Notes under the pieces: generated by a model | What the model was told of the DNA's origin: nothing | What the model saw: the letters and a program-made list of their open reading frames with translations, nothing else | The model's database searches: none | Assembly: GCA_022509005.1 (NCBI GenBank) | Contig: JAFLUC010000010.1 | Coordinates: 1-45,790, forward strand | DNA: 45,790 bases | DNA from: Oscillospiraceae bacterium | GTDB taxonomy: Bacteria; Bacillota; Clostridia; UBA1381 | Direction of reading: 5' to 3' | Position numbers and translations under genes: made by a program | In this document: piece by piece, positions 68 to 20,810 of the stretch | Position numbering within the stretch: position 1 is the first letter of the stretch | Layout of the letters: every line of letters begins with the position of its first letter

Positions 68-218
68 AAAATTGGCAGGTAGATCGAGGGACGGTTTGCT
101 ACCTCGAGTGCGTTTTTTAGAACTTGATCGGGCGGTCTTTGAGTACACAGAATTGTCACTTGATGACGTACACTAAGCTTCTATTTTTTTTAGACCGCCT
201 TTACCTGCCAATTTTTTT
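68..218 (+). ncRNA. Candidate IS110 bridge RNA
   Basis: A 14-bp perfect inverted repeat (68-81 with 202-215, extendable to 16 bp with one G-U pair) closes a roughly 150-nt domain. Inside are a hairpin with stem 84-89/102-107 and a 12-base loop, a linker, and a second arm with stem 131-138/192-199 that carries a smaller hairpin at 155-158/164-167. A run of seven T follows the closing stem at 212-218, just before the transposase ribosome binding site (GGAGG, 222-226). IS110-family elements are known to encode a bridge RNA in a non-coding end, whose loops specify target and donor DNA. The structure and position match. The assignment is inference from folding by eye. Confidence 0.55.
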
Positions 219-1466: not shown

Positions 1467-1541
1467 TCGGTATTCACACTAACCGTCCCCTTGTATTGGT
1501 ATTCAGTAATTGTCGGTATTCACACTAACCGTTCCTTTGTG
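1467..1541. repeat. Direct repeat of a REP-like sequence
   Basis: Two identical 20-base copies (tcggtattcacactaaccgt) lie at 1467-1486 and 1513-1532. They are followed by similar tails (ccccttgt and tcctttgt). A shorter partial copy (ggtattca) lies at 1498-1505. Read on the minus strand they give the GGGGACGGTT-type word common in Clostridia intergenic repeats. They sit between the insertion sequence and the stop codon of the next gene. Confidence 0.75.
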
Positions 1542-1542
1542 T

Positions 1543-2046
1543 TCAAAATAAATCTTCTAAACCCTCAATTATACCTTTATTAGGATTTTTTATTCTGTAA
1601 AGTCTGTCGGCCTGTAAATCTTTTATGAATACTTCTCCGTATATGATATAATTTTTTAATATATTGCCCTCTTTGTCATAATACGTAATAAACGTATCCG
1701 GGCTTTGGTTTGGTAATTCATCCTCATATGCCACAGCCAGTCTCATATGTTTCAAATATTTATTTATTTTTTTTATATTGTCCGTTGTGTTATATATCGC
1801 TCTATCTCCGTCTTTTTTATCGTAGGTGTTTAGGTCTATTACTCCTTTAACCTCTATATAGATATTATCCGATTGAGGTATATCAGACAAATGCTTTGTT
1901 AGCCTGAATTTTGCCTTATATTCGGCAAGATCTAACTCACGATTCGGATTTGAGGGATTCATAATGAGTGCAATATACACGCCCTGATATATTATAAATA
2001 ATCCGGCTATAACTGAAAATATTATAATTATAATTCGCTTTACCAT
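1543..2046 (-). CDS. Small membrane-anchored protein, function unknown
   Basis: This 167-residue protein was not recognised. It begins with a positively charged MVKR and a strongly hydrophobic stretch (about residues 5-28), giving one N-terminal membrane anchor or an uncleaved signal. The remainder is polar and would lie outside the cell. The C-terminal half has alternating beta-like segments (YYDKEGNILKNYIIYGEVFI). The gene has its own promoter (2168-2196) and a leader of roughly 110 bases containing a REP-like hairpin. Its stop codon (1543-1545) directly abuts the repeats at the edge of the insertion sequence, so its C-terminus could have been altered. It is more AT-rich than the genes further right. 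Confidence 0.65.
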   Translation of the reverse strand: MVKRIIIIIFSVIAGLFIIYQGVYIALIMNPSNPNRELDLAEYKAKFRLTKHLSDIPQSDNIYIEVKGVIDLNTYDKKDGDRAIYNTTDNIKKINKYLKHMRLAVAYEDELPNQSPDTFITYYDKEGNILKNYIIYGEVFIKDLQADRLYRIKNPNKGIIEGLEDLF

Positions 2047-2070
2047 ATTCCTTAATTCCTTTTAACAAAA

Positions 2071-2138
2071 CACGAGGGAACGATTCTATTGTGCTTTTCA
2101 CAAGCAATTTTAGTGCACAAGAGAACCGTCCACCTGTG
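2071..2138 (-). repeat. REP-like inverted pair in the leader of the 1543-2046 gene
   Basis: The arms 2071-2094 and 2115-2138 pair over 21 of 24 positions when read as minus-strand RNA, including three G-U pairs. The right arm contains the same ACGGTTCTCTTGTG-type word that characterises REP-like repeats near 1480 and 1527. It lies between the promoter at 2168-2196 and the start codon at 2046, so it would form a hairpin in that messenger's leader. Confidence 0.6.
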
Positions 2139-2167
2139 TTACCTGTTAACAATCTTCCTTTAATTAT

Positions 2168-2337: not shown

Positions 2338-4389
2338 TTATTTTGTATTTGCAGCTGCAATGATCTTGTTTGCGATCTCCATCGGCGCTCTTTCATAGCG
2401 TACAAATTCAAACGTGAAGCTGCCGCTGCCGCCGCTCATTGCGCGAAGGTCTGTTGCGTATTTGTGCATTTCGGAAACAGGTACTTCAGCTTCTACCAGG
2501 TTAAGCCCCGGCTTATCACTCTCACCCATTCCCATTATTCTGCCTCTGCGCTTGTTTATATCACCAATAACGTCACCCATGATATTTTCCGGCACATAGC
2601 TCTTGAGCCAGCCTATCGGTTCAAGTATTACCGGACCTGCCTGCTTCATGCCTTCTTTATAGGCAAGTGATGCAGCAGTCTTGAACGCCATTTCAGATGA
2701 ATCTACCGGATGATATGATCCGTCAAGAAGTGTCGCCTTCAGATTCACTACCGGATAGCCTGCGAGAACACCATAATCAGCACTTTCACGCAGACCCTTT
2801 TCAACTGCCGGGAAGTAGTTTCTCGGCACACTTCCGCCGAATACCTTCTCCTCGAACATAAGCTCTTCGGTGAGACCCGGTGTAAACTCGATCTTAACAT
2901 GACCATACTGACCATGTCCGCCTGACTGTTTCTTATGCTTTCCTTCAACAACAGCCGTCTTTGTAATTGTTTCTCTGTAAGGTGTTATCGGTTCTTCAAG
3001 AACAACATTTACGCCATATTTATTCTTCAGCTTGCTTACGATAACATCAATATGCTGCTCACCCTGACCGTTAATCAGTGTCTGCTTTGTTTCAACATTA
3101 TTTGTAACGCTGAAAGTAGGATCTTCGTCCATCAGCTTTGCCAGACTGCCTACAACCTTTTCCTCATCACCCTTGTTTTCAGGACGGATACCCATTGAAA
3201 GCGACGGTGTCGGGAACTCGATACCGGTAAGAATTATATTCTTATTCTTATCACAGAGCGTGTCTCCTGTTCTTGTATGCTCAAGCTTTGTTACGCAGCC
3301 TATATCTCCTGCCTTAACCGACTTAACCTCGGTCTGCTTCTTGCCGCAGAGTGAATAAAGCTTTCCTATTCTTTCGTTCTCACCCTTATTCGGATTATAG
3401 TAGTTTGAATCAGCCTTGATCTCGCCTGAATATACTCTGAATATTGACATTCTGCCTACAAACGGGTCAGCGATCGTTTTGAATACAACTGCCGCCGTTG
3501 TCTCGTCCGGCGACTGTACAAGCTCAACCGGCTCTGCCGTATCCGCTTTTCTTGCCGTTTCTGTAATCTCATCAGGAGCAGGAAGGTATTTTCCGATACT
3601 GTCCATAAGTGAACGTATACCTATATTCTGCTCGCCGCTGCCGCAGTAAACAGGGTAAATGCTTCCGTCCTTAACACCGTTTCTTATTGCCTTCTTGATC
3701 TCATCGAACGTGAACGGCTCCTCGTTAAAGTACTTCATCATAAGCTCTTCATCAGTGCCGGCAATAGCCTCCATGATCATTTCGCGAAGCGGAGCAACTG
3801 TTTCCTCCATTCCCTCCGGAACCGGAATATCAATACGCTCTGTTCCCTCATAGCGGCGCGCTGTCATGTCTATAATATCAACATATCCCTGGAATCCGGT
3901 GTCGTCCTGAATAGGATAAACGAACGGTGTTATGGACTTGCCGAAAGTCTCTTTAAGATCCTCAAGCGTCTTTTCATAGCTTGCATGCTTATCATCGATC
4001 TTATTTACAAAGAACATAATCGGGATATCCTTTGTCTTCGCGTATTCATATACATGCTTTGTTCCTATGCCCACGCCTGTTCTGCCGCTCACTACGATAA
4101 CCGCACTATCTGCCGCTCTTACGCCTGCCTTTACGTCTCCCGCGTAATCAAAATATCCCGGTGTGTCAATTATATTGTATTTATATTCCTTCCATTTGAA
4201 ACTCTCAATTGTTGTGTTTATTGAGCACTGTCTCTTAAACTCCTCAGAATCATAGTCTGAAACAGTTGTACCCTCAGTAACAAGACCGATACGCTTGATC
4301 TGACCTGCGTTATAGAGCATAGCTTCAACCATAGCTGTTTTTCCGCACTTTCCGTGACCCATTAAAACAATGTTTCTTGTGTTTTGCAT
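2338..4389 (-). CDS. Elongation factor G-like translational GTPase
   Basis: The gene encodes a 683-residue EF-G paralogue. GTPase motifs are present: G1 GHGKCGKT near residue 12, DTPG near residue 78 and NKID near residue 130. They are followed by the beta-barrel domain II, domain III, domain IV and a C-terminal domain ending in the EF-G-type GSFTFEFVRYERAP. The G1 loop differs from the canonical AHIDAGKT, which marks the EF-G-like subfamily rather than housekeeping fusA. The start at 4389 is preferred over one at 4437 because GGAGG sits 9 bases upstream and the protein then begins MQNTRNIVLMGHG, as in the family. The exact role of these paralogues is not settled. The gene is monocistronic. 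Confidence 0.9.
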   Translation of the reverse strand: MQNTRNIVLMGHGKCGKTAMVEAMLYNAGQIKRIGLVTEGTTVSDYDSEEFKRQCSINTTIESFKWKEYKYNIIDTPGYFDYAGDVKAGVRAADSAVIVVSGRTGVGIGTKHVYEYAKTKDIPIMFFVNKIDDKHASYEKTLEDLKETFGKSITPFVYPIQDDTGFQGYVDIIDMTARRYEGTERIDIPVPEGMEETVAPLREMIMEAIAGTDEELMMKYFNEEPFTFDEIKKAIRNGVKDGSIYPVYCGSGEQNIGIRSLMDSIGKYLPAPDEITETARKADTAEPVELVQSPDETTAAVVFKTIADPFVGRMSIFRVYSGEIKADSNYYNPNKGENERIGKLYSLCGKKQTEVKSVKAGDIGCVTKLEHTRTGDTLCDKNKNIILTGIEFPTPSLSMGIRPENKGDEEKVVGSLAKLMDEDPTFSVTNNVETKQTLINGQGEQHIDVIVSKLKNKYGVNVVLEEPITPYRETITKTAVVEGKHKKQSGGHGQYGHVKIEFTPGLTEELMFEEKVFGGSVPRNYFPAVEKGLRESADYGVLAGYPVVNLKATLLDGSYHPVDSSEMAFKTAASLAYKEGMKQAGPVILEPIGWLKSYVPENIMGDVIGDINKRRGRIMGMGESDKPGLNLVEAEVPVSEMHKYATDLRAMSGGSGSFTFEFVRYERAPMEIANKIIAAANTK

Positions 4390-9830: not shown

Positions 9831-11192
9831 TTATTTTAATTCGTTTACCAGTTTCTTAAACAGATTTCCGCGTTCCTCAAAGTTTCTGAACATATCAAAA
9901 CTTGTTGAAGCCGGTGAAAGCAGAACCACATCACCCTCCGCGGCCTTGCTTCTCGCGGCATTTACCGCGTCCTCGTATGATTCTGCTCTTATAACTTCAA
10001 CCTCATCCGCTCTACCTGTCGCTTTTAATGAATCCTCAATCTTATCACTTGTCGCGCCTATAAGTATGAGCGTCTTAACGTGATCTGCCACAGGCTCGCC
10101 CATAGCATCGTAAGGAATTCCTTTATCCTTTCCGCCGCTTATCATTATAACCTTTTCGCCGAATACATTAAGTGTATTAATTGTTCTGTTCGGACTCGAG
10201 TCAATTGAGCTGTTATAGTAGCGAACACCGTCAAGCGTTCTCACCAGCTCTATTCTATGCGGCACTCCACCAAAAGTTTTTGCGGTGTTCACAATCACAT
10301 CATCCGGTACAAGTCCGTCAACAGCTCCGATTGCCGCCATATAGTTTTCAACATTATGCATACCCGGAATCTTAATATCATTTATATTAAGCACTGTTCT
10401 GCCCTTGCATACAATAGCTCCGTCTGAAATACCGATTTCAGTATCATCGCCGCGCGAGAAATACTCTACCTTTACATATTCCGGCGGGATAAGAGCTGCG
10501 CTGTCAGGATTTCCGGCATTTAAAATAAGCTTACAGCCCTCTGTCATATTATTATATATGTTCGTTTTTGCTTCAATATATTCATTGTAATCCGTATGCC
10601 AATCGAGATGGTTCGGACTGAGATTTGTTATAACCGCGATCTCCGGTGAATATTTCATTGTATGGAGCTGGAATGAGGAAAGCTCCAGTACAACATAGTC
10701 ATTCTCAGTCATGCCGTCAACCTCGGAAAGCAGCGGATGACCTATGTTTCCGCCAAGCCATGTCTTGTATCCGGCATCGGTGAGCATCTTATGAATAAGC
10801 GTCGTTGTAGTCGTCTTTCCATCTGAGCCTGTAACTGCAATTATATGCGATGGGCAGAGCTCAAAAAATGTTTCCATTTCCGATGTGATCCTCGCGCCTC
10901 TTTCCGCCGCCTTAACAAGCTCCGGCTTATCTATCCTCATACCCGGTGTTTTAAAAATTATATCGTCTGTAAGGTTATCAAGATAACCATCTCCAAGACA
11001 GGTCTTTACACCAAGCTCCGCGCAGATCTTGTAGTTATCGCCAAGCCACTCAGCATCATGCGCATCACAAGCTGTAACAACTGCTCCTGCCTCCGTAAGA
11101 TACTTTATAAGCGGCAGATTTGATATACCTATACCTATAACCGTAACATTTCTGCCCTTTATGTTTTCCTTAAATATATCAGCCTTAGTCAT
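9831..11192 (-). CDS. murD: UDP-N-acetylmuramoyl-L-alanine--D-glutamate ligase
   Basis: This 453-residue cytoplasmic Mur ligase adds D-glutamate to UDP-MurNAc-L-Ala in peptidoglycan synthesis. The N-terminal Rossmann domain (VTVIGIGISNLPLI) binds the substrate. The ATP loop is TGSDGKTTTTTLI near residue 117, followed by NLSPNHLDWH and the C-terminal ligase domain (YNSSIDSSPNRTINTL, SGGKDKG). The length is normal. GGGAGG precedes the ATG. The gene is first after a strong promoter (11228-11256) and leads into three M42 peptidases rather than lying in the usual division and cell-wall cluster, which is unusual. Confidence 0.96.
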   Translation of the reverse strand: MTKADIFKENIKGRNVTVIGIGISNLPLIKYLTEAGAVVTACDAHDAEWLGDNYKICAELGVKTCLGDGYLDNLTDDIIFKTPGMRIDKPELVKAAERGARITSEMETFFELCPSHIIAVTGSDGKTTTTTLIHKMLTDAGYKTWLGGNIGHPLLSEVDGMTENDYVVLELSSFQLHTMKYSPEIAVITNLSPNHLDWHTDYNEYIEAKTNIYNNMTEGCKLILNAGNPDSAALIPPEYVKVEYFSRGDDTEIGISDGAIVCKGRTVLNINDIKIPGMHNVENYMAAIGAVDGLVPDDVIVNTAKTFGGVPHRIELVRTLDGVRYYNSSIDSSPNRTINTLNVFGEKVIMISGGKDKGIPYDAMGEPVADHVKTLILIGATSDKIEDSLKATGRADEVEVIRAESYEDAVNAARSKAAEGDVVLLSPASTSFDMFRNFEERGNLFKKLVNELK

Positions 11193-11227
11193 TGTAAGCC
11201 TCCCGAAAAAATATCATAGATATTTAT

Positions 11228-11256
11228 ATTATACTAAATTTTCCGCAAAATGTAAA
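11228..11256 (-). promoter_or_regulatory. Promoter of the murD-peptidase operon
   Basis: Minus strand: TTTACA (11251-11256), 17-base spacer, perfect TATAAT (11228-11233), about 36 bases before the murD start. Confidence 0.75.
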
Positions 11257-11267
11257 GGTTCTATACG

Positions 11268-11295
11268 AAAAAAAGTCACTCGCGTGACTTTTTTT
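11268..11295 (-). terminator. Terminator after the zinc-ribbon/YARHG gene
   Basis: A 12-bp perfect stem (11268-11279 with 11284-11295) of seven A, GTCAC, loop TCGC, GTGAC, seven T. It is symmetrical and can act in both directions. It separates the 11301 gene from the murD promoter. Confidence 0.9.
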
Positions 11296-11300
11296 CATTA

Positions 11301-12413
11301 TCATATATATTTATGTGACTTTTCGTATTGGAGTATGAACTTAGCGTTAGCCTGCTCAATGTTGTTAAGGTTTGCAGCATCATCGCTGTAATTATAACTG
11401 CCGTTAACACTGTACCATGGACATTTATTGAAATAATTCTGCAATGACGCATCCTTGAACTTTCTTCCGTGACGCGCATATATTTCATTACGCGCTATGC
11501 GAAGCTCATCGGCGCTCTTTCCGGCAAGATCTGCTTCTGTCAGCAGCCTTGACGATGAATCACCGAACACATAACCGTCCTCTCCTACTTTAACACCGGA
11601 ATAATCCTTCGCTGCAGATGCTGCGGGAGCCGTATTGACCGCTGCTCCGCCCTGGGCTGAGGAGCTTGCACCGCCCGATGCGCTGCCGGAGCTCGTGCTG
11701 CCGCCCGATACTGATCCGCTGTTTGCGCTTCCGCCTGATGCTGAACCACCGCTTGCAGCCGGAGCTCTGTTTGTTCCCGCCGAACCGCTGCTCGTGCTGC
11801 CGCTTGCACCTGAAGAGCTGCCCGATGATCCGGCTGCACCGCCTGACGCCGAACCGCCGCTGCCGCCTGACACACTGCCGGAGCTTGTGCCGGATGCTGG
11901 AGTCTGGGTTGCTGCTTCCTCTGTCTCCGCCGGAGCTTCTGTTTCTTCTTCGTCAGGAACAACAGTAGGCAATGGAGCCTCTGTCGCTTTATTATCTTCA
12001 ACCGTTATCTCTGTATCGCCTTGATTTTGAGATATATAATATATCCAGCCGCCTATGCCGCCGAGTGCAAGAATTATTATGATTATTGCAATAATTCTGT
12101 TTCTTTTCTGTTTTTTCTTTTTTTCATTTCTGCGTTTTTCAATCTCATCAAGCTGCTGCTGCTTCTCTGCTTGCAGCCGATTGATCTGCATTCTGCGCTT
12201 TCTCTCATTTTCATCAAACAGCGCGTCTGTTTCATCCGGCTCATCAACACCCAGAGCTTCCTCCGGTAAAGCTTCCTCTGCATCCTCATTTACAGCATTC
12301 GTATCTATAACTGTTGTTTCCTCATCTTCTGAAATTCCTTTCAGAACTGCTCCGCAAAAGTTGCATTCTGTTGAATTATCGTCTATCTGTGCGCCGCATT
12401 TTTTACATATCAT
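11301..12413 (-). CDS. Zinc-ribbon membrane protein with low-complexity stalk and YARHG domain
   Basis: This 370-residue protein has a modular layout. An N-terminal zinc ribbon (CKKCG and CNFCG, Cys pairs within residues 3-21) is followed by an acidic stretch and a charged, probably coiled segment (about 72-105). One transmembrane helix follows (about 106-128, RNRIIAIIIIILALGG). Outside comes a Ser/Gly/Ala-rich flexible linker of roughly 100 residues with repeated SGGSASGG-type units. The C-terminal YARHG domain contains ARNEIYARHGRKF and CPWY. YARHG domains are extracellular and thought to bind cell wall or ligand, but their role is unknown. The gene has its own promoter and terminator. A surface sensor or wall-binding role is inference. 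Confidence 0.88.
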   Translation of the reverse strand: MICKKCGAQIDDNSTECNFCGAVLKGISEDEETTVIDTNAVNEDAEEALPEEALGVDEPDETDALFDENERKRRMQINRLQAEKQQQLDEIEKRRNEKKKKQKRNRIIAIIIIILALGGIGGWIYYISQNQGDTEITVEDNKATEAPLPTVVPDEEETEAPAETEEAATQTPASGTSSGSVSGGSGGSASGGAAGSSGSSSGASGSTSSGSAGTNRAPAASGGSASGGSANSGSVSGGSTSSGSASGGASSSAQGGAAVNTAPAASAAKDYSGVKVGEDGYVFGDSSSRLLTEADLAGKSADELRIARNEIYARHGRKFKDASLQNYFNKCPWYSVNGSYNYSDDAANLNNIEQANAKFILQYEKSHKYI

Positions 12414-12472
12414 AGTTTATTCCTCCGATATATCCCAAAACAGGATTTATTTTCACCAGTTTATCCACTAAA

Positions 12473-12502
12473 ATTATACTTTACATATCCGTCTAAAGTC
12501 AA
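12473..12502 (-). promoter_or_regulatory. Promoter of the zinc-ribbon/YARHG gene
   Basis: Minus strand: TTGACT (12497-12502), 18-base spacer, TATAAT (12473-12478). A 32-base palindrome starts 12 bases further upstream (12515-12546). Confidence 0.65.
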
Positions 12503-12514
12503 CAACACCGCACT

Positions 12515-12546
12515 AACATTTGCTTTACAATTGTTAAGCAAATGTT
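12515..12546. repeat. 32-base palindrome upstream of the YARHG gene promoter
   Basis: The two 16-base arms (12515-12530 and 12531-12546) meet without a loop and differ at one position only. It lies between the stop of the 12589 gene and the -35 box at 12497, so it could be an operator or the end of the preceding transcript. No T run follows, so it is not a standard terminator. Confidence 0.6.
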
Positions 12547-12588
12547 ACAGTTCATAAAACTGTTCAGGGAATGGTATATCTGAATATA

Positions 12589-13176
12589 TTATTCGTCGTC
12601 TTCGTCCTTTTCAAACGTCAAAGCATCAAGTTTTTCCAATACATCAAACTTTGCTATACCTGCATAGTACCCTAATGTACTCATAATAATAGGGAGAAAT
12701 GTAAATATTGCAACGAGATAAAGCGGAACAGAGCCGTAGCATTGCTGTGCAAAACCAAAAAACGGTGCGATCCATGCAAAGAACAGCAGATTAAGCGTAG
12801 AAGCAAAAACATTTGTAAAGCCGTCACCATTACTCCAAAACTTCCATACACCTATATGAATCGCAACAAAAAACAACATTGCAGCTGAGAGCATGATACC
12901 CCAGAATATACCCCATTTAAGCTTCTGCTTAAGCGGCGTATACGGCTTCCCGTCAAAATCCGAAAGCTTCTTTGCGCCGCTGTATATCATCCCGGCATAT
13001 ACGAGCGCGAAAATTGTGCCCACTATATATTTTCCGGGTGTAAGACCCAAAAACTTCCAACACGCTACCGCCTGAAAAACGATACATACGCCCACAGCCT
13101 TTAAGTGCTGCAAAAGCATATATCCAAACTGATATTTTCTTGTTATTTCAACTGAATTTCTCATTGTTATTACCAT
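12589..13176 (-). CDS. Four-helix membrane protein, function unknown
   Basis: This 195-residue integral membrane protein was not assigned to a family. Four hydrophobic helices can be seen: about 22-40 (LKAVGVCIVFQAVAC), 46-66 (PGKYIVGTIFALVYAGMIY), 86-110 (WGIFWGIMLSAAMLFFVAIH) and 145-172 (VPLYLVAIFTFLPIIMSTLGYYAG). A shorter hydrophobic segment near 125-140 is also present. The tail is acidic (FEKDEDDE). AAGGA precedes the ATG at 13176; a second ATG four codons later is possible. Upstream is the long inverted repeat at 13196-13302. No partner genes point to a function. Confidence 0.7.
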   Translation of the reverse strand: MVITMRNSVEITRKYQFGYMLLQHLKAVGVCIVFQAVACWKFLGLTPGKYIVGTIFALVYAGMIYSGAKKLSDFDGKPYTPLKQKLKWGIFWGIMLSAAMLFFVAIHIGVWKFWSNGDGFTNVFASTLNLLFFAWIAPFFGFAQQCYGSVPLYLVAIFTFLPIIMSTLGYYAGIAKFDVLEKLDALTFEKDEDDE

Positions 13177-13195
13177 TAAATCCTTTCATAAAACT

Positions 13196-13302
13196 TAAGT
13201 TTGAGAGAAAATCGTTCAGATTGTGCGACCATGCGAACGAGGCTATATGCCGATATGCGAGTGAGCATGGTCGTGCAAGATGGGCGATTTTATCCAAACT
13301 TA
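13196..13302 (+). repeat. Long near-perfect inverted repeat (about 107 bases)
   Basis: The arms 13196-13234 and 13265-13302 pair almost throughout. The outer stem is 13197-13214 with 13285-13301, with one bulge and one mismatch. The inner 9-bp perfect stem is 13226-13234 with 13265-13273, continued by further pairs. Four of the pairs are G-T in the plus-strand sense, which would be A-C mismatches in minus-strand RNA. It fills the whole gap between two minus-strand genes and overlaps the stop codon of the 13300 gene. It could be a miniature mobile element or a structured RNA read from the plus strand. Confidence 0.6.
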
Positions 13303-14490
13303 TTTTGCTGCTGCGGTTCCGGCAAGGTAACCGCTGCTCCATGCCCATTGCAGGTTATAACCGCCGCAGTCGCCGTCAATATCAAGCACCTCGCCGCACG
13401 CATATAAGCCATTTATAAGCTTCGATTCCATTGTCACCTTATCAAACTGCGCCGTAACGGCACCGCCTTTCGTGACCTGGGCATTGTTCCACGACATCGT
13501 ACCCTCAATCTTAAAGCTCCATTTTTTTATTGCCGCAGCAAGCTGTTTTATCTCAGTCCCGGAAAGCGATCCCGAAAGTCTTGAAAGCGGCGCAATTCCC
13601 ACTGATTTTAACAAAGCCTGTCCGACGCGTTTATTGAGCATACCGGTAAAGTAGTCCTCTAAAGGAACATTGCACAGATATGCGCATCTGTCTGAAAGAA
13701 TGGAGTGAACATCTGTATATTTATATTCCGGCATAAGATCAAGTTCGGCTGTTTTGCAGCCAGCCATATACGCAGAAAGAAAAAATACAGGCGGACCGGA
13801 AAGTCCGTAATCGGTAAACAGGATTTCTCCTGTTTCGCATCTTCCGCCCAGCGTAAGAGCAGCATTCACTTTTATTCCCTTAAGCTTTTTTACAATATCG
13901 GTTTCTGTTTTTATCTGAACAAGCGACGGATAAATCGCTGTTATCGTATGTCCAAAGGATTTCAGAATTTCATAGCAGCTTCCGTTTGATCCAAGCGCAG
14001 GCGAAGCCTTTCCGCCTCCCGCTATTACAACTCTGTCACAGACTTCTTTTCTGCCTCTGTAATCCTCAATTATAAACTCTCTGCCTTTTTTCTTTACCGA
14101 TTTTACATCAAATCCGCATTCGACTGAGATGCCTTCCGTATCAAGTCTGCGCCTTAAAACATCCAGCACTGAAGATGCAGTATCGGAATATGGGTAAACC
14201 TTTCCGCCATCTTCCTCCTTCCAAAGAATACCGCACTCAGTAAAGAAATCAAGAGTCCTATCAACCCAGAATCGTTTTATTGCTCCGTCAATAAATGAAA
14301 TATCAAAACCGTGATAATTATCGGGCGACGCAGTTGTATTCGTCATATTACAGCGTCCGTTTCCGGTTGCAAGAATTTTCTTGCCGACTCTCTTTTCACG
14401 TTCATATATGGTTACATCCGTATTTTCATTCTTAGCCGCTATAGCAGCCATCAGCCCCGACGCGCCGCCTCCTATTATTCCGATTTTCAT
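13300..14490 (-). CDS. YhiN/HI0933-family FAD-dependent flavoprotein
   Basis: This 396-residue flavoprotein carries the FAD-binding dinucleotide motif IIGGGASGLMAAIAA at residues 4-18. The family hallmark GKKILATGNGRCNMTN follows near 36-51, and a C-terminal FAD motif (GLYACGEVLDIDGDCGGYNLQWAWSSG) comes near the end. The family is often labelled aminoacetone oxidase-like or BaiN-like. The E. coli member YhiN has been reported to make dihydrouridine in 23S rRNA, so an rRNA modification role is the best current guess. Its ATG overlaps the stop of the upstream AI-2E-family gene by 4 bases, so the two are co-translated. Its own stop lies within the large inverted repeat. Confidence 0.9.
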   Translation of the reverse strand: MKIGIIGGGASGLMAAIAAKNENTDVTIYEREKRVGKKILATGNGRCNMTNTTASPDNYHGFDISFIDGAIKRFWVDRTLDFFTECGILWKEEDGGKVYPYSDTASSVLDVLRRRLDTEGISVECGFDVKSVKKKGREFIIEDYRGRKEVCDRVVIAGGGKASPALGSNGSCYEILKSFGHTITAIYPSLVQIKTETDIVKKLKGIKVNAALTLGGRCETGEILFTDYGLSGPPVFFLSAYMAGCKTAELDLMPEYKYTDVHSILSDRCAYLCNVPLEDYFTGMLNKRVGQALLKSVGIAPLSRLSGSLSGTEIKQLAAAIKKWSFKIEGTMSWNNAQVTKGGAVTAQFDKVTMESKLINGLYACGEVLDIDGDCGGYNLQWAWSSGYLAGTAAAK

Positions 14491-15695
14491 TTGTTCTCCT
14501 CGGCTTCTTCGGGATTACCGATATCCGCCTCTGCTTGATCTTCATTCGCATGACGAGCAGCCTTTTCACGCGACTGAACATACTCGGTGAATATCGCTCT
14601 TATTATCGCCACAACCGGTACGGAAACTAACATTCCGATAAATCCGAACAGACTTCCGCCAACCGTTACCGCAATGATTATCGCAAGCGGTCTTACTTCC
14701 AAACGGCTTCCCATAACTCTCGGCGCAAGCACATTTCCGTCAATCTGCTGCATGACAAACATGGCAATAGAACACCATATCGAGTGGAACAGTCCGCCTG
14801 ATACCGTCATAAGCACGAAGCCTACTGCCCATGAAATGATTGAGCCAAAATACGGTATCATATCCATTACACCAATAAATAAACCAAGAATCAACGCATA
14901 CTGCTCACCCATAAGCGCAAGAACTATCGAACACGCAACAGCCATTATAACACAGCAAATGAGTCTTGAATATATATATTGCGTAAAAATCTGGTTTACA
15001 CTTGCAAGATGGCCAAGCACTTTTTCAAATCGACTATTTCTTGAAAAAATTTTCGCATTGCGTTTGATAGAGCGTATTATGCGATCTTTATCCATAATCA
15101 TATAAATGGACGCGATTACTCCTATAAAGGTGTTCATTACTCCTGAAGCGAATGACATAATACTTGATGTTATTGAAAGCGCTCCTGATGCATATTTACC
15201 GACCATACTTGAATTCATACTCTGCACCCATTTATTGATCGCACTTTGAAGGTCGTTTATGTTTATATTGATTCCAAGCCGCTTGATCACATCGAGATTA
15301 TTTATATATTCTATGATCTGTTCAATGATCCCGGGCATATTTTTGATCATATCCATACAGTTTTTGTACAGCATCGGCACTACGGAGCAAAATACAATAA
15401 CAAGTATTATAACCATCATTACGTATACAAACGCAACAGACATAGCCCATGAGTGTTTTTGCAAAAATCCTGTCTTGGCCTTTTTTTGCACCAGATTATT
15501 AAGATGCTTTGCCGGAATATTTATAACATACGCTATTACAAACGCAAGAATAAATGGTTTTATCGCTTTCATTACAACTGAGATGATGCCCTTTAGCTCA
15601 GCAAAGCTGTTAAATGTCTTATAAACCGCGATCAGCGCAGCGCCTAAAATAAACAGCGTTACCCATTTGGAATATTTTCTTATCCAATTCAACAT
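14487..15695 (-). CDS. AI-2E-family (PerM/YtvI-like) membrane transporter
   Basis: This 402-residue polytopic membrane protein of the AI-2E transporter superfamily has a pair of helices near the N-terminus (about 13-60), one near 78-100, and a long amphipathic region (about 105-180). A cluster of helices follows between about 185 and 370, including ALMGEQYALILGLFIGVMDMIPYFGSIISW. That family-typical segment and the QIDGNVLAPRVMG motif near 310 support the assignment. The substrate cannot be inferred, since family members include exporters and sodium/proton antiporters. The C-terminus is charged and cytoplasmic. It overlaps the downstream flavoprotein gene by 4 bases (ATGA). Confidence 0.88.
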   Translation of the reverse strand: MLNWIRKYSKWVTLFILGAALIAVYKTFNSFAELKGIISVVMKAIKPFILAFVIAYVINIPAKHLNNLVQKKAKTGFLQKHSWAMSVAFVYVMMVIILVIVFCSVVPMLYKNCMDMIKNMPGIIEQIIEYINNLDVIKRLGINININDLQSAINKWVQSMNSSMVGKYASGALSITSSIMSFASGVMNTFIGVIASIYMIMDKDRIIRSIKRNAKIFSRNSRFEKVLGHLASVNQIFTQYIYSRLICCVIMAVACSIVLALMGEQYALILGLFIGVMDMIPYFGSIISWAVGFVLMTVSGGLFHSIWCSIAMFVMQQIDGNVLAPRVMGSRLEVRPLAIIIAVTVGGSLFGFIGMLVSVPVVAIIRAIFTEYVQSREKAARHANEDQAEADIGNPEEAEENK

Positions 15696-15767
15696 ATATC
15701 CGAATATTCTCCTTTATTTATTATATGCCCTTACTTTTATATATAGCATAAGCGCAAGAGAAGGATT

Positions 15768-15802
15768 GAGGCTGAACATACTCAATGAGTCTGATCAGCC
15801 TC
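15768..15802 (-). terminator. Nested hairpin after the SLH protein gene
   Basis: An 8-bp stem (15768-15775 with 15795-15802) encloses a second small hairpin (actca/tgagt, 15780-15790). It lies 23 bases after the stop at 15826, but no T run follows on the minus strand, so it is a weak or factor-assisted terminator at best. Confidence 0.4.
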
Positions 15803-15825
15803 TCTTTTAAATCGTCTTGAATTTA

Positions 15826-17673
15826 TCAGTCTGCCTGTGTTACGATTACAAGGCTTGCCACGAATGCGCCGTTTGTTGTTGTACCGCGGCATTCTACCTT
15901 ATCACCGGTCTTTATGCTCTTGAAGTCGATCGGCTTACCTGCAGCTGTAATGAAGGTTGTCTGGTTTGATGTCTTATAGACAGGAACCGGAATATCATAT
16001 CCTTCAACAAGAACGCTTATGAATCCGTATGCCGTATTCACAGCTGTTACCGTACCGTTTACGGAACCGGTACCATTACCGGCGTCATTGATGATAGCTG
16101 TGGAAACCTGAATCTTTGTTACAGCTGATGACTGCGTTGTAAGAGTTACGCTGTCACCTACTCTGAAATCATAGAGTGAACCTTCCTTCTGATTTACGAT
16201 TATAATGCAGTCTACAGGGATCTGGTATTCCTTTTCCTTACCCTCCGCTCTTACTGTTATTGACGGATTATTTGAAATCTTTACCTCGACAATTGAACCC
16301 GATACAGAGCCATAGGTCGAGGTCGCCTCTGCCTTTATTATCTTCCCGTATCTGAGAGTAAGCGTAACCTTATCGCCAACATATATATCCGACATATCAC
16401 ATTCTTTGCTTGCCTTTGTTGCGACCGCATCACTTGCCACCTCATAGGTCTTGCCGTTATATGCGCTGTTTGCGGATGAAATTGTCATTTTCACGCTTTC
16501 TCCGTCAACCTCGATCTCATCAACCGTAGCACCTGTTATCGTCTCGGTCTTTTCCGATCCGACAATGCTAAGAACCTTTCCGTCTACGATCTCAATTGTG
16601 ATAGAATCGCCGTCGCTGAAGTTTTTCACAGTTGCCGGTGCTCCCTTATATGTAACGGGAACATTGTCTACACAAGGATAGCTCTTTGTTGTTGATGATG
16701 TTGCCGACTCCTTAACTTTTATATATGTTATTCCGTTAGACGTGCTGTAGCTTGAGAATATAGCTGTAATTGTAGCTTCAGGCTGATCTGACAGACCATC
16801 AATGCTGACAACCTTATCGCCCGAGAGCTGAATAACAACGCCGGCATCTATTGTCAGTTTTTCGGGAAGCTCATACTCACCTTTAAGCGTGAATTGTGTA
16901 TTCTCATCATATGAATATGTTGTTTCTTCACCGTGAACTGATATTGTAAATGTAGATTCGTCCTCATCCACATTTTTAAGCTTCCCTCTGATGAACGAAT
17001 AGTCACAATGATTAGCCACTCTGTAAAGCATAACGGCAATCTGCGCTCTTGTAACTGTACCGCCCGGCTGGAACTCGTCGTCAATACCGTTCATTATTCC
17101 CTGTTCCGTTACATAATCAACATACGGAAGAACGTTTGACGGTATTGATGATTTATCGGCATAATCAACAGTTATGCTGCTTACCTGCTTCAGGCTCTGC
17201 CCTCCGCCCATTGCTTTTGTAATAATTACCGCAGCTTCGCCTCTGGTAAGCGGCTGATTTTTAAGATCGCCTTTCAGGTATGTATCAAGATCCGAAATAC
17301 TGAGCGCATTCTTGTAAAGCAGATATGTGGCCTCATCATCACCCCATGACAGACTATATGACTTTAAAGCTGAATCATACTGCGAATGAGCGAGCTCCAA
17401 AACCTCTGTGTTTTCTGGTGTGATCTCTGTATCACTGCCCATTGCTCTTGCAAAAAGCGCGATACCTTCGAGTTTTGTTACCTGATTATCCGGTTTGAAG
17501 GTTCCATCATCATATCCGTGTACATATCCCGCATCAGCCATAGCCCTGATCTGCGGCGCACACCACGAATAGCTGCTTCCACTAATATCACTGAATGAAG
17601 ACGCGGCAAACGCAGGAGCTGTAATACACAGAGCTGCAGTCGCTGCAATAACCGATACGATAGTTTTCTTCAT
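15826..17673 (-). CDS. SLH-domain surface protein with repeated beta modules
   Basis: This 615-residue exported protein has a clear signal peptide (MKKTIVSVIAATAALCITAPAFA). Three N-terminal SLH motifs lie at about residues 25-80, 110-155 and 165-220 (for example DGTFKPDNQVTKLEGIALFARAMG and TVTRAQIAVMLYRVAN). They bind secondary cell-wall polymer. The rest (about 225-615) is built from several similar beta-rich modules with a recurring pattern of a GxV start, a charged strand and a GDxVTLT/TLTLRYGKI strand, resembling DUF5666-like repeats. This suggests an S-layer or S-layer-associated structural protein. It has its own strong promoter. No enzymatic motif is visible. Confidence 0.88.
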   Translation of the reverse strand: MKKTIVSVIAATAALCITAPAFAASSFSDISGSSYSWCAPQIRAMADAGYVHGYDDGTFKPDNQVTKLEGIALFARAMGSDTEITPENTEVLELAHSQYDSALKSYSLSWGDDEATYLLYKNALSISDLDTYLKGDLKNQPLTRGEAAVIITKAMGGGQSLKQVSSITVDYADKSSIPSNVLPYVDYVTEQGIMNGIDDEFQPGGTVTRAQIAVMLYRVANHCDYSFIRGKLKNVDEDESTFTISVHGEETTYSYDENTQFTLKGEYELPEKLTIDAGVVIQLSGDKVVSIDGLSDQPEATITAIFSSYSTSNGITYIKVKESATSSTTKSYPCVDNVPVTYKGAPATVKNFSDGDSITIEIVDGKVLSIVGSEKTETITGATVDEIEVDGESVKMTISSANSAYNGKTYEVASDAVATKASKECDMSDIYVGDKVTLTLRYGKIIKAEATSTYGSVSGSIVEVKISNNPSITVRAEGKEKEYQIPVDCIIIVNQKEGSLYDFRVGDSVTLTTQSSAVTKIQVSTAIINDAGNGTGSVNGTVTAVNTAYGFISVLVEGYDIPVPVYKTSNQTTFITAAGKPIDFKSIKTGDKVECRGTTTNGAFVASLVIVTQAD

Positions 17674-17729
17674 AAATAATTCATCCTCCCTTGCCCGTCC
17701 GAAATAACAGGCATATTTGTATATTCAAT

Positions 17730-17758
17730 ATTATAACATATTTCATTATCCCTATCAA
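17730..17758 (-). promoter_or_regulatory. Promoter of the SLH surface protein
   Basis: Minus strand: TTGATA (17753-17758), 17-base spacer, TATAAT (17730-17735). GGGAGG precedes the start codon. Confidence 0.7.
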
Positions 17759-17828
17759 GATTTTTTTTGTTACATTTTCATGACAGTTATATGTATATTA
17801 TGATATATATTACAGCAAATACAATAAA

Positions 17829-17857
17829 ACAGCGGCTGTTATTTTAGCTGCCGCTGT
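17829..17857 (-). terminator. Terminator after larB
   Basis: An 8-bp GC-rich stem (17829-17836 with 17850-17857; ACAGCGGC/GCCGCTGT) with a 13-base loop, followed on the minus strand by TTTTATTG, eight bases after the larB stop. Confidence 0.8.
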
Positions 17858-17865
17858 CTGTATTA

Positions 17866-18615
17866 CTATATATGATTTATCATGCTTGCGAGATATCCTG
17901 CACCGAATCCGTTATCAATATTTACAACGCTCACGCCGCTCGCACATGAATTCAGCATTGAAAGAAGCGCCGAGATTCCGCCAAATGACGCGCCGTACCC
18001 GACACTGGTCGGGACAGCAATAACAGGGCAGTCCGCCATACCGCCGATAACGCTCGCAAGCGCGCCCTCCATTCCCGCAATCGCAATTATCACCTTCGCG
18101 CTCATGATCTTATCCGAATTCGCGAGCAGTCTGTGTATTCCGGCAACACCGACATCATAGAGACGCACAACACGATTTCCGAGAGCTTCGGCGGTAATTG
18201 CCGCTTCTTCTGCAACAGGCATATCGCTTGTGCCGCCCGTTGCGATTACGATATTTGATTCAGATTCCGGCTCCGGCATTTCTCCTGCAACACCTATCCG
18301 CCCCATATCATGGTACTTAAACGGCATTCCCGAATTCTTCATATATTCTGCCGCTTCACTGCTCATTCTTGTTATAATTACAGTCTTTTGCCCGGCATCA
18401 AGTAAACGCGCTGTTATTTGAGCAATCTGCTCCGGCGTTTTGCCTGCTCCGTAAATGACCTCGCCTGCGCCCTGTCTTATGCCGCGGTGATGATCCACTT
18501 TCGCGAAGCCTATATCCTCAAACGGGTGAGCGCGAAGCTTAGTCATCGCCTCGTGAACAGTTACATCACCGGATGCAATTTTATTCAAAAGCTCTTTTAA
18601 TTCATTCTGCTCCAT
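17866..18615 (-). CDS. larB: Pyridinium-3,5-biscarboxylic acid mononucleotide synthase (nickel-pincer cofactor)
   Basis: This 249-residue LarB has an N-terminal helical segment (LLNKIASGDVTVHEAMTKL) and the conserved FAKVDHHRGIRQGAGEVIYGAGKT near residues 38-60. The C-terminal half is PurE-like (IVIATGGTSDMPVAEEAA, IAGMEGALASVIGG, VPTSVGYGASFGG). LarB carboxylates and hydrolyses nicotinic acid adenine dinucleotide, the first step in making the nickel-pincer nucleotide used by lactate racemase and related epimerases. The length and motifs are complete. It stands alone between its own promoter and terminator; the partners larC and larE are not in this window, nor is a recognisable target enzyme. 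Confidence 0.92.
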   Translation of the reverse strand: MEQNELKELLNKIASGDVTVHEAMTKLRAHPFEDIGFAKVDHHRGIRQGAGEVIYGAGKTPEQIAQITARLLDAGQKTVIITRMSSEAAEYMKNSGMPFKYHDMGRIGVAGEMPEPESESNIVIATGGTSDMPVAEEAAITAEALGNRVVRLYDVGVAGIHRLLANSDKIMSAKVIIAIAGMEGALASVIGGMADCPVIAVPTSVGYGASFGGISALLSMLNSCASGVSVVNIDNGFGAGYLASMINHI

Positions 18616-18670
18616 CAGCCTTCACCTCAAAATTCTACTGTTATCTGCCGGGAAATTAATTTGCCATTCT

Positions 18671-18699
18671 ATTATATATATCTGACAAAAGATTGTCAA
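18671..18699 (-). promoter_or_regulatory. Promoter of larB
   Basis: Minus strand: perfect TTGACA (18694-18699), 17-base spacer, perfect TATAAT (18671-18676). Confidence 0.75.
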
Positions 18700-18752
18700 C
18701 CTTTTAAATGTAAACTTTTATGCTGAAAAGCAAAATTTTTCAAGAAAAAAAC

Positions 18753-18781
18753 TTGACAAACTGATATAATTATGGTATTAT
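18753..18781 (+). promoter_or_regulatory. Promoter of tRNA-Lys
   Basis: Plus strand: perfect TTGACA (18753-18758), 17-base spacer, TATTAT (18776-18781), 29 bases before the mature tRNA. Confidence 0.75.
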
Positions 18782-18810
18782 ATCTTCTGTGTTAAAAATA
18801 CATAGAATAT

Positions 18811-18886
18811 GCGCTATTAGCTCAGTTGGTAGAGCACCTGACTCTTAATCAGGGTGTCCGGGGTTCGAGCCCCCGATGGCGTACCA
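18811..18886 (+). tRNA. tRNA-Lys (anticodon CTT)
   Basis: A 76-base cloverleaf with the CCA end encoded. The acceptor arm is gcgctat with atggcgt (7 pairs, two of them G-U), the D-arm is gctcagttggtagagc, and the anticodon loop CTCTTAA gives anticodon CTT. The T-arm is cgggg-ttcgagc-ccccg. It has its own promoter and terminator and is transcribed opposite to its neighbours. tRNA genes are common insertion points for accessory genes, and the ATPase/TOPRIM pair follows directly. Confidence 0.97.
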
Positions 18887-18926
18887 AAGAAAACCCTACA
18901 GCCATGCGGTTTGTAGGGTTTTCTTT
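18886..18926 (+). terminator. Terminator of tRNA-Lys
   Basis: A 15-bp perfect stem (18886-18900 with 18912-18926), 11-base loop, followed by a T-rich run. It begins at the last base of the tRNA. Confidence 0.88.
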
Positions 18927-19003
18927 TTTCTCAATCGTCTGTATATTAGTAGTTATACAGCTATTATACAGCTATTGGTATTATAATTTTAAATTAAACC
19001 AAT

Positions 19004-19720
19004 TTATTCAATAAATTCCGGATTATAATCCGCAATATAAAATACACATGTACACATTACCCAAACAAATTGATCGTTCTGTAGTTCATCCAATTGCTTC
19101 TGTAATATTAAACCGTTATCCGGCGTATTATTATAGTCACAGGCTTGTCTGATTATAGCATAAGCTTTTTCAATATTCTGCTTTATAACTATATTGCACT
19201 CATTCTTATCCACAGCAAACTTAGTATAATCATGATTCCTATTCTCATGATTCACCCTTTGTTTGTAGGTTCCTTCTTTTAACTCATCCATAGTTACAGT
19301 ATAAGACATATACATATCATCCGGTATATCTTTCATGTGATAAAAAGCTTCAACCATAGGATAATTAATATATAGCTTTCCCATATCAGAGGATTCTTTG
19401 AAATATTCAGCCATCTCAATGATTTTATAATCAGCATATAAATGGTCTTGCGGATCTAAATCAAAGATAAGAAGTATATCAGAATATCTTTCATCAAATA
19501 TCTTCTTTTTGTCTGCATCCGGTTCGCGCTCTTTTAAAAGCTGCAATAAATCTATTGAATCGGGATCTCCGTCCTCAAACATCTCTCTGTACAATTCATA
19601 TATGTTAGTATTATACGAGATAAGCTCGTGATTATCGCTTATCCCATATATATCAAGCAGCTTTTCCATTAATCTGACATCCGTTTTTGCACCCTCGACA
19701 AGCATTAATATTTTACTCAT
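19004..19720 (-). CDS. TOPRIM-like protein, partner of the adjacent ATPase
   Basis: This 238-residue protein belongs to no family I can name with certainty. It shows a TOPRIM-like pattern: a first strand ending in an acidic residue and glycine (ILMLVEGAKTD, E9), then a strand with a DxD pair (DILLIFDLDPQD, D87/D89), then NYPMVEAFYH near 120. This arrangement is seen in nucleases coupled to AAA-type ATPases such as OLD, RloB, AbiL and PARIS partners. The ATG at 19720 overlaps the ATPase stop by 8 bases and has GGTGA upstream, so the pair is translationally coupled; a GTG at 19729 is the alternative. The region is clearly more AT-rich than its surroundings. A nuclease effector role is inference. 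Confidence 0.7.
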   Translation of the reverse strand: MSKILMLVEGAKTDVRLMEKLLDIYGISDNHELISYNTNIYELYREMFEDGDPDSIDLLQLLKEREPDADKKKIFDERYSDILLIFDLDPQDHLYADYKIIEMAEYFKESSDMGKLYINYPMVEAFYHMKDIPDDMYMSYTVTMDELKEGTYKQRVNHENRNHDYTKFAVDKNECNIVIKQNIEKAYAIIRQACDYNNTPDNGLILQKQLDELQNDQFVWVMCTCVFYIADYNPEFIE

Positions 19721-20810
19721 TAAACTCACCGCTCATATACAGTTTTTCGAGATTGTGTCCTTCTCTCAACTCTCTTGTGGTTGCGTTTGCAAATGATGTT
19801 ATCTTGTCCTCTGTCATAATTAAATAGCAGTCCGGACGCATTATCTTATTTGATAAGAGATTTGTATTATGTGAGGTCAATATAACCTGTGTATTTTTCA
19901 TTTTTTCTATAATATCAACAATTGTCTCTGCTAACTCAAAATGATAGAACGCGTCAAATTCATCGATAAACATCAATGAAACGTCTTTCGCTGTCTTATA
20001 CCAATAGAAAAAGGTATATAATACCTTTGTTCCGCTTGATGCTACTCTAAAGAACGGCAGCGGTGTATTACCATCAAAGTATAATCTTTTTACACCATCT
20101 ATATCTTTATTGACCACTAAATGTTCATTGATTCCTGATTTTTTCAGAAAGCTTTCAAATTCGCTCAAAACACTTTCATCAAATATAAACTCGTAATAAT
20201 CATCACTTTTATTCTTATATCCAATATATCTATTTTCATCAAGACTTCTGAACCACAGCATATTTGATATAAAGTTCATCATTTGACTCAGGGGATGATG
20301 TCTATCAAGTACGGTATTATTCATAACATATTTTAATATTGAATCTACATCATTATATACCCAGTTCAGAGTAGGAGCGATAGCACTCAAACCATCTGTA
20401 TTACCTGACTTATTGATATAATCATATTCAAAAAGAATCGTATCATCTATCGAAAGCTTTTCATATGCTAATTCTCTCTTAGCATTCTTTTTATAATAAT
20501 AATCTACTACACGCTCTCCAAACTCAAATTGATAATGAAAATCAGCAACTCCGTTTCGCAAGTCAGAGTTGATATAATAATCATATAAATTCGGTGTTAC
20601 ATTCTTTGTCGTGAGATGAGATACAATATCAAAAATTGCTAATCCGAGATTCGTCTTACCTACAGAATTCTTTCCGTAAACAATAACTTTGCTAAGTAAA
20701 CCGTTTGATATACATTCATTATTAAACTTGTAATCTCTGACATCAGAAAAATTAATTGTCATTTCATCCTTAAAGTTTTTAAATCCTGACACTTCAAATA
20801 GTTTAAGCAT
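19713..20810 (-). CDS. AAA15/AAA21-type ABC-like ATPase, likely defence component
   Basis: This 365-residue ATPase has the SMC/OLD-like layout of AAA15/AAA21 proteins. FEVSGFKNFKDEMTINF opens the protein, Walker A is GKNSVGKT (46-53), and a long insert (about 70-250) separates the halves. The ABC-type signature is VASSGTKVLY (257-266), Walker B is LMFIDE (279-284) and the switch His lies in LTSHNTNLL (H314). Such ATPases pair with TOPRIM or other nucleases in phage-resistance systems (OLD/Gabija-like, RloAB, AbiL, PARIS). The gene starts with GAGGGTGA upstream and is driven by a promoter overlapped by a perfect palindrome. It is AT-rich and sits beside tRNA-Lys, consistent with horizontal gain. 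The exact system type is undetermined. Confidence 0.82.
   Translation of the reverse strand: MLKLFEVSGFKNFKDEMTINFSDVRDYKFNNECISNGLLSKVIVYGKNSVGKTNLGLAIFDIVSHLTTKNVTPNLYDYYINSDLRNGVADFHYQFEFGERVVDYYYKKNAKRELAYEKLSIDDTILFEYDYINKSGNTDGLSAIAPTLNWVYNDVDSILKYVMNNTVLDRHHPLSQMMNFISNMLWFRSLDENRYIGYKNKSDDYYEFIFDESVLSEFESFLKKSGINEHLVVNKDIDGVKRLYFDGNTPLPFFRVASSGTKVLYTFFYWYKTAKDVSLMFIDEFDAFYHFELAETIVDIIEKMKNTQVILTSHNTNLLSNKIMRPDCYLIMTEDKITSFANATTRELREGHNLEKLYMSGEFNE

Follow-up and report, generated by a model that had tools for sequence, protein, structure and literature searches.

A probable bridge RNA in the left end of an IS110-family insertion sequence, with traits of both the IS110 and IS1111 groups

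The non-coding leader ahead of a transposase gene at the start of contig JAFLUC010000010.1, from an Oscillospiraceae bacterium, raises the question of whether it is a bridge RNA that guides recombination, as the initial annotation of this DNA proposed. The window analysed here is the whole 45,790-nucleotide stretch. Its positions 1-1482 very probably form an IS110-family insertion sequence whose left end (LE) contains a predicted promoter and specifies a roughly 136-nt bridge RNA (seekRNA). The gene, the RNA and their signals are arranged as follows.

39-67, + strand: predicted sigma-70-type promoter, TTGCAA-N17-TATAAT (best sigma-70 match on this strand; conserved -10 box)
74-209, + strand: predicted bridge RNA (seekRNA), closing stem 74-81/202-209 enclosing two arms (fold, covariation, covariance model)
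82-129, + strand: arm 1, predicted target-binding loop, outer stem 82-85/126-129 and inner hairpin at about 98-111 (compensatory changes in both stems)
130-199, + strand: arm 2, predicted donor-binding loop, outer stem 130-138/192-199 and inner hairpin 155-158/164-167 (compensatory changes)
222-226, + strand: ribosome binding site GGAGG (sequence)
233-1399, + strand: IS110-family DEDD transposase/recombinase, 388 aa (PF01548 and PF02371 above cut-off; catalytic residues)

The protein belongs to the IS110 family, with a DEDD RuvC-like domain (PF01548), PF02371 and the conserved serine; its reading frame is intact and carries D12, E62, D102, D105 and S304, as first described. The near-consensus promoter that had been placed at 39-67 also stands: it ranks first among sigma-70 matches on the + strand, carries an extended TG, and its TATAAT is identical and in the same position in 9 of 12 relatives. 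The stretch 74-209 lies between this conserved -10 box and the transposase gene, and transcription would start from this internal promoter. The leader has a minimum free energy of -42.5 kcal/mol (z = -3.1 against shuffled sequences) and folds into two stem-loop arms inside a closing stem, the arrangement originally described and recovered both in the fold and in relatives. The closing stem (GGCAGGTA/TACCTGCC) had been put at up to 16 bp; the stem itself holds, at a shorter length of 8 bp inside the transcript, or 14 perfect base pairs when bases upstream of the start are counted.

Conservation of this fold was assessed in related elements. Single-sequence searches of genome and viral contigs found no close relatives, and an alignment-based scan retrieved 80 relatives at 34-72% identity; one relative was taken from a plasmid record (L011) and one from a genome search (L013). 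These last two have internally deleted or truncated transposase genes and an intact RNA and right end. The leaders of the 12 closest relatives can be aligned end to end, and RNAalifold gives two arms, each composed of an outer stem, an internal loop and an inner stem. Pair cells are kept at 98.1%, compared with 34-46% in slid controls, and 16 of 27 pairs are altered on both sides. The closing stem, which MAFFT misaligned and which was compared in a hand-anchored alignment, pairs in all 12, with a single mismatch in one. A covariance model built from these 12 found 43 further loci at E <= 0.01; with a single exception these lie immediately upstream of, and in the same orientation as, the transposase of a relative. 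The model matches the RNA in most other relatives, where it ends shortly before the transposase start. The covariance comparison that the initial annotation had proposed as its check thus favours the RNA strongly. Among 398 genomes of the phylum, 10 carry the RNA (E <= 1e-7), and some of them have 7-8 copies. The model matched none of IS621, ISEc11 and IS4321, and the leader had no match in Rfam 15 at E <= 1, so the family is absent from that collection. That these stems are chance inverted repeats has a negligible probability: the window is AT rich and holds many imperfect inverted repeats, but the z score and the massive compensatory change in relatives speak against it. We conclude that a conserved RNA structure containing two internal loops occupies this non-coding end.

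A structured leader could instead be a cis-acting RNA that regulates the transposase gene, by attenuation or at the level of translation, with no guide function. Its position directly before the ribosome binding site suits such a role, as does the T run that follows the closing stem in the window copy. This T run, which had been read as ending the domain, is absent from the relatives compared and was rejected as a terminator. In a Bacteroidetes relative (L089), moreover, an RNA of the same family (4197-4323) comes immediately after the transposase (2962-4200) and so cannot be a leader there. Regulation also leaves unexplained the covariation of the loops with host target sequences described below, and we regard it as highly improbable. 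The bridge-RNA reading requires loop segments that match target and element ends, and four such segments are predicted.

88-96, + strand: predicted right-target guide GGGACGGUU, pairing with top-strand AACCGTCCC at 1481-1489 (antisense covariation)
118-123, + strand: predicted left-target guide UAGAAC, equal to the left target AGAAC of relatives (sense covariation; multicopy relatives)
145-152, + strand: candidate arm-2 5' guide ACACAGAA, matching LE 17-24 (covariation)
170-176, + strand: predicted left-donor guide ACACUAA, matching the right end at 1476-1482 (covariation)

Each loop segment was compared with the DNA of its own element and with swapped partners from other elements. For all four matches none of 10,000-20,000 swaps scored as high, although these counts, like the permutation counts below, ignore relatedness and are therefore inflated rather than true probabilities. 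In arm 1, the right-target guide scored 6.14 of 7 in antisense against its own flank and 5.04 against swapped ones (22 elements with different targets; 0/20000). Close relatives all share one target, and this covariation therefore depends on more distant elements. One example of paired change is ACAUUG with flank CAATGT (L048) against ACCUUG with CAAGGT (L024). The left-target guide scored 6.09 in sense against 5.04 for swapped partners (23 elements; 0/10000), and the 3' side of arm 1 equals the left flank in individual elements, for example AAATAAAAC in L055, TACGAAAAC in L046 and TACACAAAAC in L063.

Multicopy genomes offer the cleanest case for the predicted left-target guide. In genomes with 8, 7, 3 and 2 copies, the left flanks are AAATAAC, TACTAAC, TCTAAC and CATTAAC and the RNA guides AAAUAAC, UACUAAC, CUCUAAC and CAUUAAC, respectively. 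Copies at different sites thus have in common a short left flank, the one expected from their RNA, and between the four element types flank and guide change together; the exceptions are one copy that deviates in its flank (L210, genome G489) and one in its guide (L203, genome G835). Such shifts of the left-target guide between multicopy relatives would represent natural reprogramming.

The donor guides of arm 2 are read against the ends of the element, which are placed as follows.

1-2, + strand: left core dinucleotide AA (AA or AAC; junctions of a seven-copy relative and other relatives)
3-73, + strand: proximal part of LE (homology with L014 and other LEs)
17-24, + strand: LE subterminal site ACACAGAA, equal to the arm-2 5' loop sequence, with a bottom strand able to pair with RNA 145-152
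29-36, + strand: left subterminal inverted repeat TGAATACC (inverted match to 1469-1476)
1469-1476, + strand: right subterminal inverted repeat GGTATTCA
1476-1482, + strand: right end, predicted left-donor sequence ACACTAA, which includes the core AA at 1481-1482 (covariation; multicopy junctions)
1483-1490, + strand: right target flank CCGTCCCC (covariation with the guide; target repeat counts)

In the seven-copy genome the left junctions read TAAC and the right junctions diverge after TTAA, and the core was therefore placed at AA. The contig starts at this core, so the left target flank of the window copy is missing. The subterminal inverted repeats (STIRs) flank the donor; the pair TGAATACC/GGTATTCA measures 8 bp, compared with 6-11 bp among relatives, and the two halves covary in 16 elements (0/20000 permutations, inflated by relatedness in the same way).

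Several fragments resembling these ends were observed. A second right-end-like copy, TCGGTATTCACACTAACCGTTCC, occupies window positions 1500-1543, 46 bp past the true right end, and may be left over from a previous insertion. Another contig of the same genome carries an identical 103-bp right-end remnant without the gene (L002:1285-1387). One relative (L015, about 2686-2789) contains, in tandem with a full element, a mini element of about 100 bp with an LE motif, a right end and an 8-bp STIR pair of its own; it has neither RNA nor gene and looks like a non-autonomous derivative.

The left-donor guide scored 6.71 in sense against its own right end and 5.03 against swapped ends (21 elements; 0/20000), with a poor match in L017. 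For the other donor guide, a segment close to the core was sought on both strands and not found. The 5' side of arm 2 instead matches the LE site, scoring 7.05 of 8 in sense for own partners and 5.68 for swapped ones (32 elements; 0/20000); the match occurs on the sense strand only and is confined to LE positions 13-34 nt from the core. A reading of this segment as a left-target guide was dropped because the ACACAGAA segment matches LE in relatives. We predict that the right-donor guide is displaced from the core and reads the strand that the left-donor guide also reads; of the four assignments this is the least certain. Alternatively, the likeness between loop and LE site could stem from an ancient duplication or from a protein-binding site common to both, leaving only three real guides. 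The match indeed shares its strand with the left-donor guide and lies about 15-22 nt off the core, and the right-donor guide of IS621, in the published description of its pairing (PMC11208160), pairs with the other strand, unlike this match. Against this, the match covaries in close and distant relatives, in sense only and within one LE interval, and we consider the alternative unlikely, though a serious contender. A displaced same-strand donor guide would make the way such elements recognise their own ends directly testable.

The targets of these elements appear to be dispersed repeats. L013 targets a palindromic repeat that several hosts carry in abundance: GAACCGTCCCC occurs 81, 121 and 163 times in the hosts of L013, L018 and L019, while the reversed pattern occurs 0-2 times. 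It is often found as inverted pairs about 30-45 bp apart, and a copy examined over its whole length forms a perfect palindrome with 30-bp arms. The left flank AGACAGAAGAAC and right flank CCTCCCCTTGTCT of L013 rejoin to the repeat palindrome, one base off. The window's own genome holds one other exact target site. A literature search for the repeat sequence returned nothing relevant, and matches to the pattern TCGAGGGACGGTTTG in viral contigs were discarded as chance occurrences in unrelated sequence. Genomes G344, G471 and G472 carry REP-like dispersed palindromes with GGGGACGGTTC...GAACCGTCCCC (for example L139:1493-1555), at 81-163 single-site matches per genome. A degenerate palindrome of the same kind lies at window positions 2069-2140, about 0.6 kb to the right of the element.

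In the mechanism we propose, the RNA folds into two arms, each with an internal loop and both enclosed by the closing stem, arm 1 reading the target and arm 2 the element. The DEDD recombinase, bound to this bridge RNA, would excise the element as a circle, which would insert at AGAA^CCGTCCCC sites that form part of the palindromic repeats dispersed in several host genomes; the predicted target sequence is AGAACCGTCCCC, with insertion at AA. Comparison among relatives shows the fold, the matches of all four loop segments, where the elements of relatives end, and which target they use. The window copy may still be functional; its genome holds one full copy only, which gives no sign of recent activity. 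Loop segments that appear complementary to target and donor ends, and that covary with them, display the defining property of a bridge RNA, and the element is therefore assigned to the bridge/seekRNA elements, in a layout other than the standard IS110 one. Covariation of stems and loops thus bears out the bridge-RNA layout first proposed. The initial annotation did not foresee the IS1111-like order of the guides, the presence of STIRs or which sequence serves as target.

The published split (PMC11208160, PMC11187229), as outlined there, assigns to the IS110 group an upstream RNA, the bottom-strand match first and no long STIR, and to the IS1111 group a downstream RNA, the top-strand match first and a long STIR. 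The window element has the long upstream non-coding region of the IS110 group (RNA at 74-209, transposase from 233). Its target matches run top strand, then bottom, instead of bottom first, and its 8-bp STIR exceeds the absent or 2-3-bp repeat of that group and falls within the 7-17 bp of the IS1111 group. Among these relatives, the IS1111 arrangement of non-coding region and RNA downstream of the transposase occurs only in the distant L089, whose loops, judged by eye, still match AAAAGAAAC in its left flank, CAGAAGAAAA at its right end and CAAACAA in its LE, an apparent move of the RNA between element ends. In a tree with few references and some long branches, ISEc11, IS4321, ISKpn2, ISPsy16 and ISShdy1 group together (100/100) to the exclusion of the window transposase, which thus probably lies outside the IS1111 clade. 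The mixture of traits, together with the downstream RNA of L089, implies that the position of the RNA, the order of its guides and the length of the STIR can be separated from one another.

It is an evenly balanced question whether this large clade, mostly of Bacillota, represents a third bridge-RNA architecture, in which IS1111-like target-guide order is combined with a left-end RNA, a single loop recognises the two element ends on the same strand, the LE site is displaced beside a subterminal repeat, the RNA from left-target guide to arm 2 is ordered as the integrated left junction, and the RNA module can occupy either end (L089). Such a clade would combine traits of both published groups, and some such layouts may already be drawn for single elements in the two key papers.

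Compared with IS621, as presented in the published descriptions (PMC11208160, PMC11208158), the element shares a left-end RNA that precedes a DEDD recombinase, a pair of arms whose internal loops read the target (first) and the donor (second), a short core, and palindromic repeats as target. It differs in several respects. The 5' loop sides of IS621 pair with the bottom strand and the 3' sides with the top, whereas the 5' side of loop 1 here pairs with the top strand; both predicted donor guides are on the same strand, one displaced from the core; the STIR is 8 bp rather than the 2-3 bp of the IS110 group; the promoter lies inside LE instead of being rebuilt in the circle; and a closing stem holds both arms. 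Like the IS1111 seekRNAs of ISEc11, ISKpn4 and ISPa11, as described in PMC11187229, it places the top-strand match 5' of the bottom-strand match and has subterminal inverted repeats of useful length, whereas those seekRNAs lie downstream of tnp and their transposases in a separate clade. ISEc21 of the IS110 family, as treated in the same paper, shares the upstream non-coding region and a transposase of similar size class (the 345-385 aa group), with the two target matches in reverse order to those of the window element.
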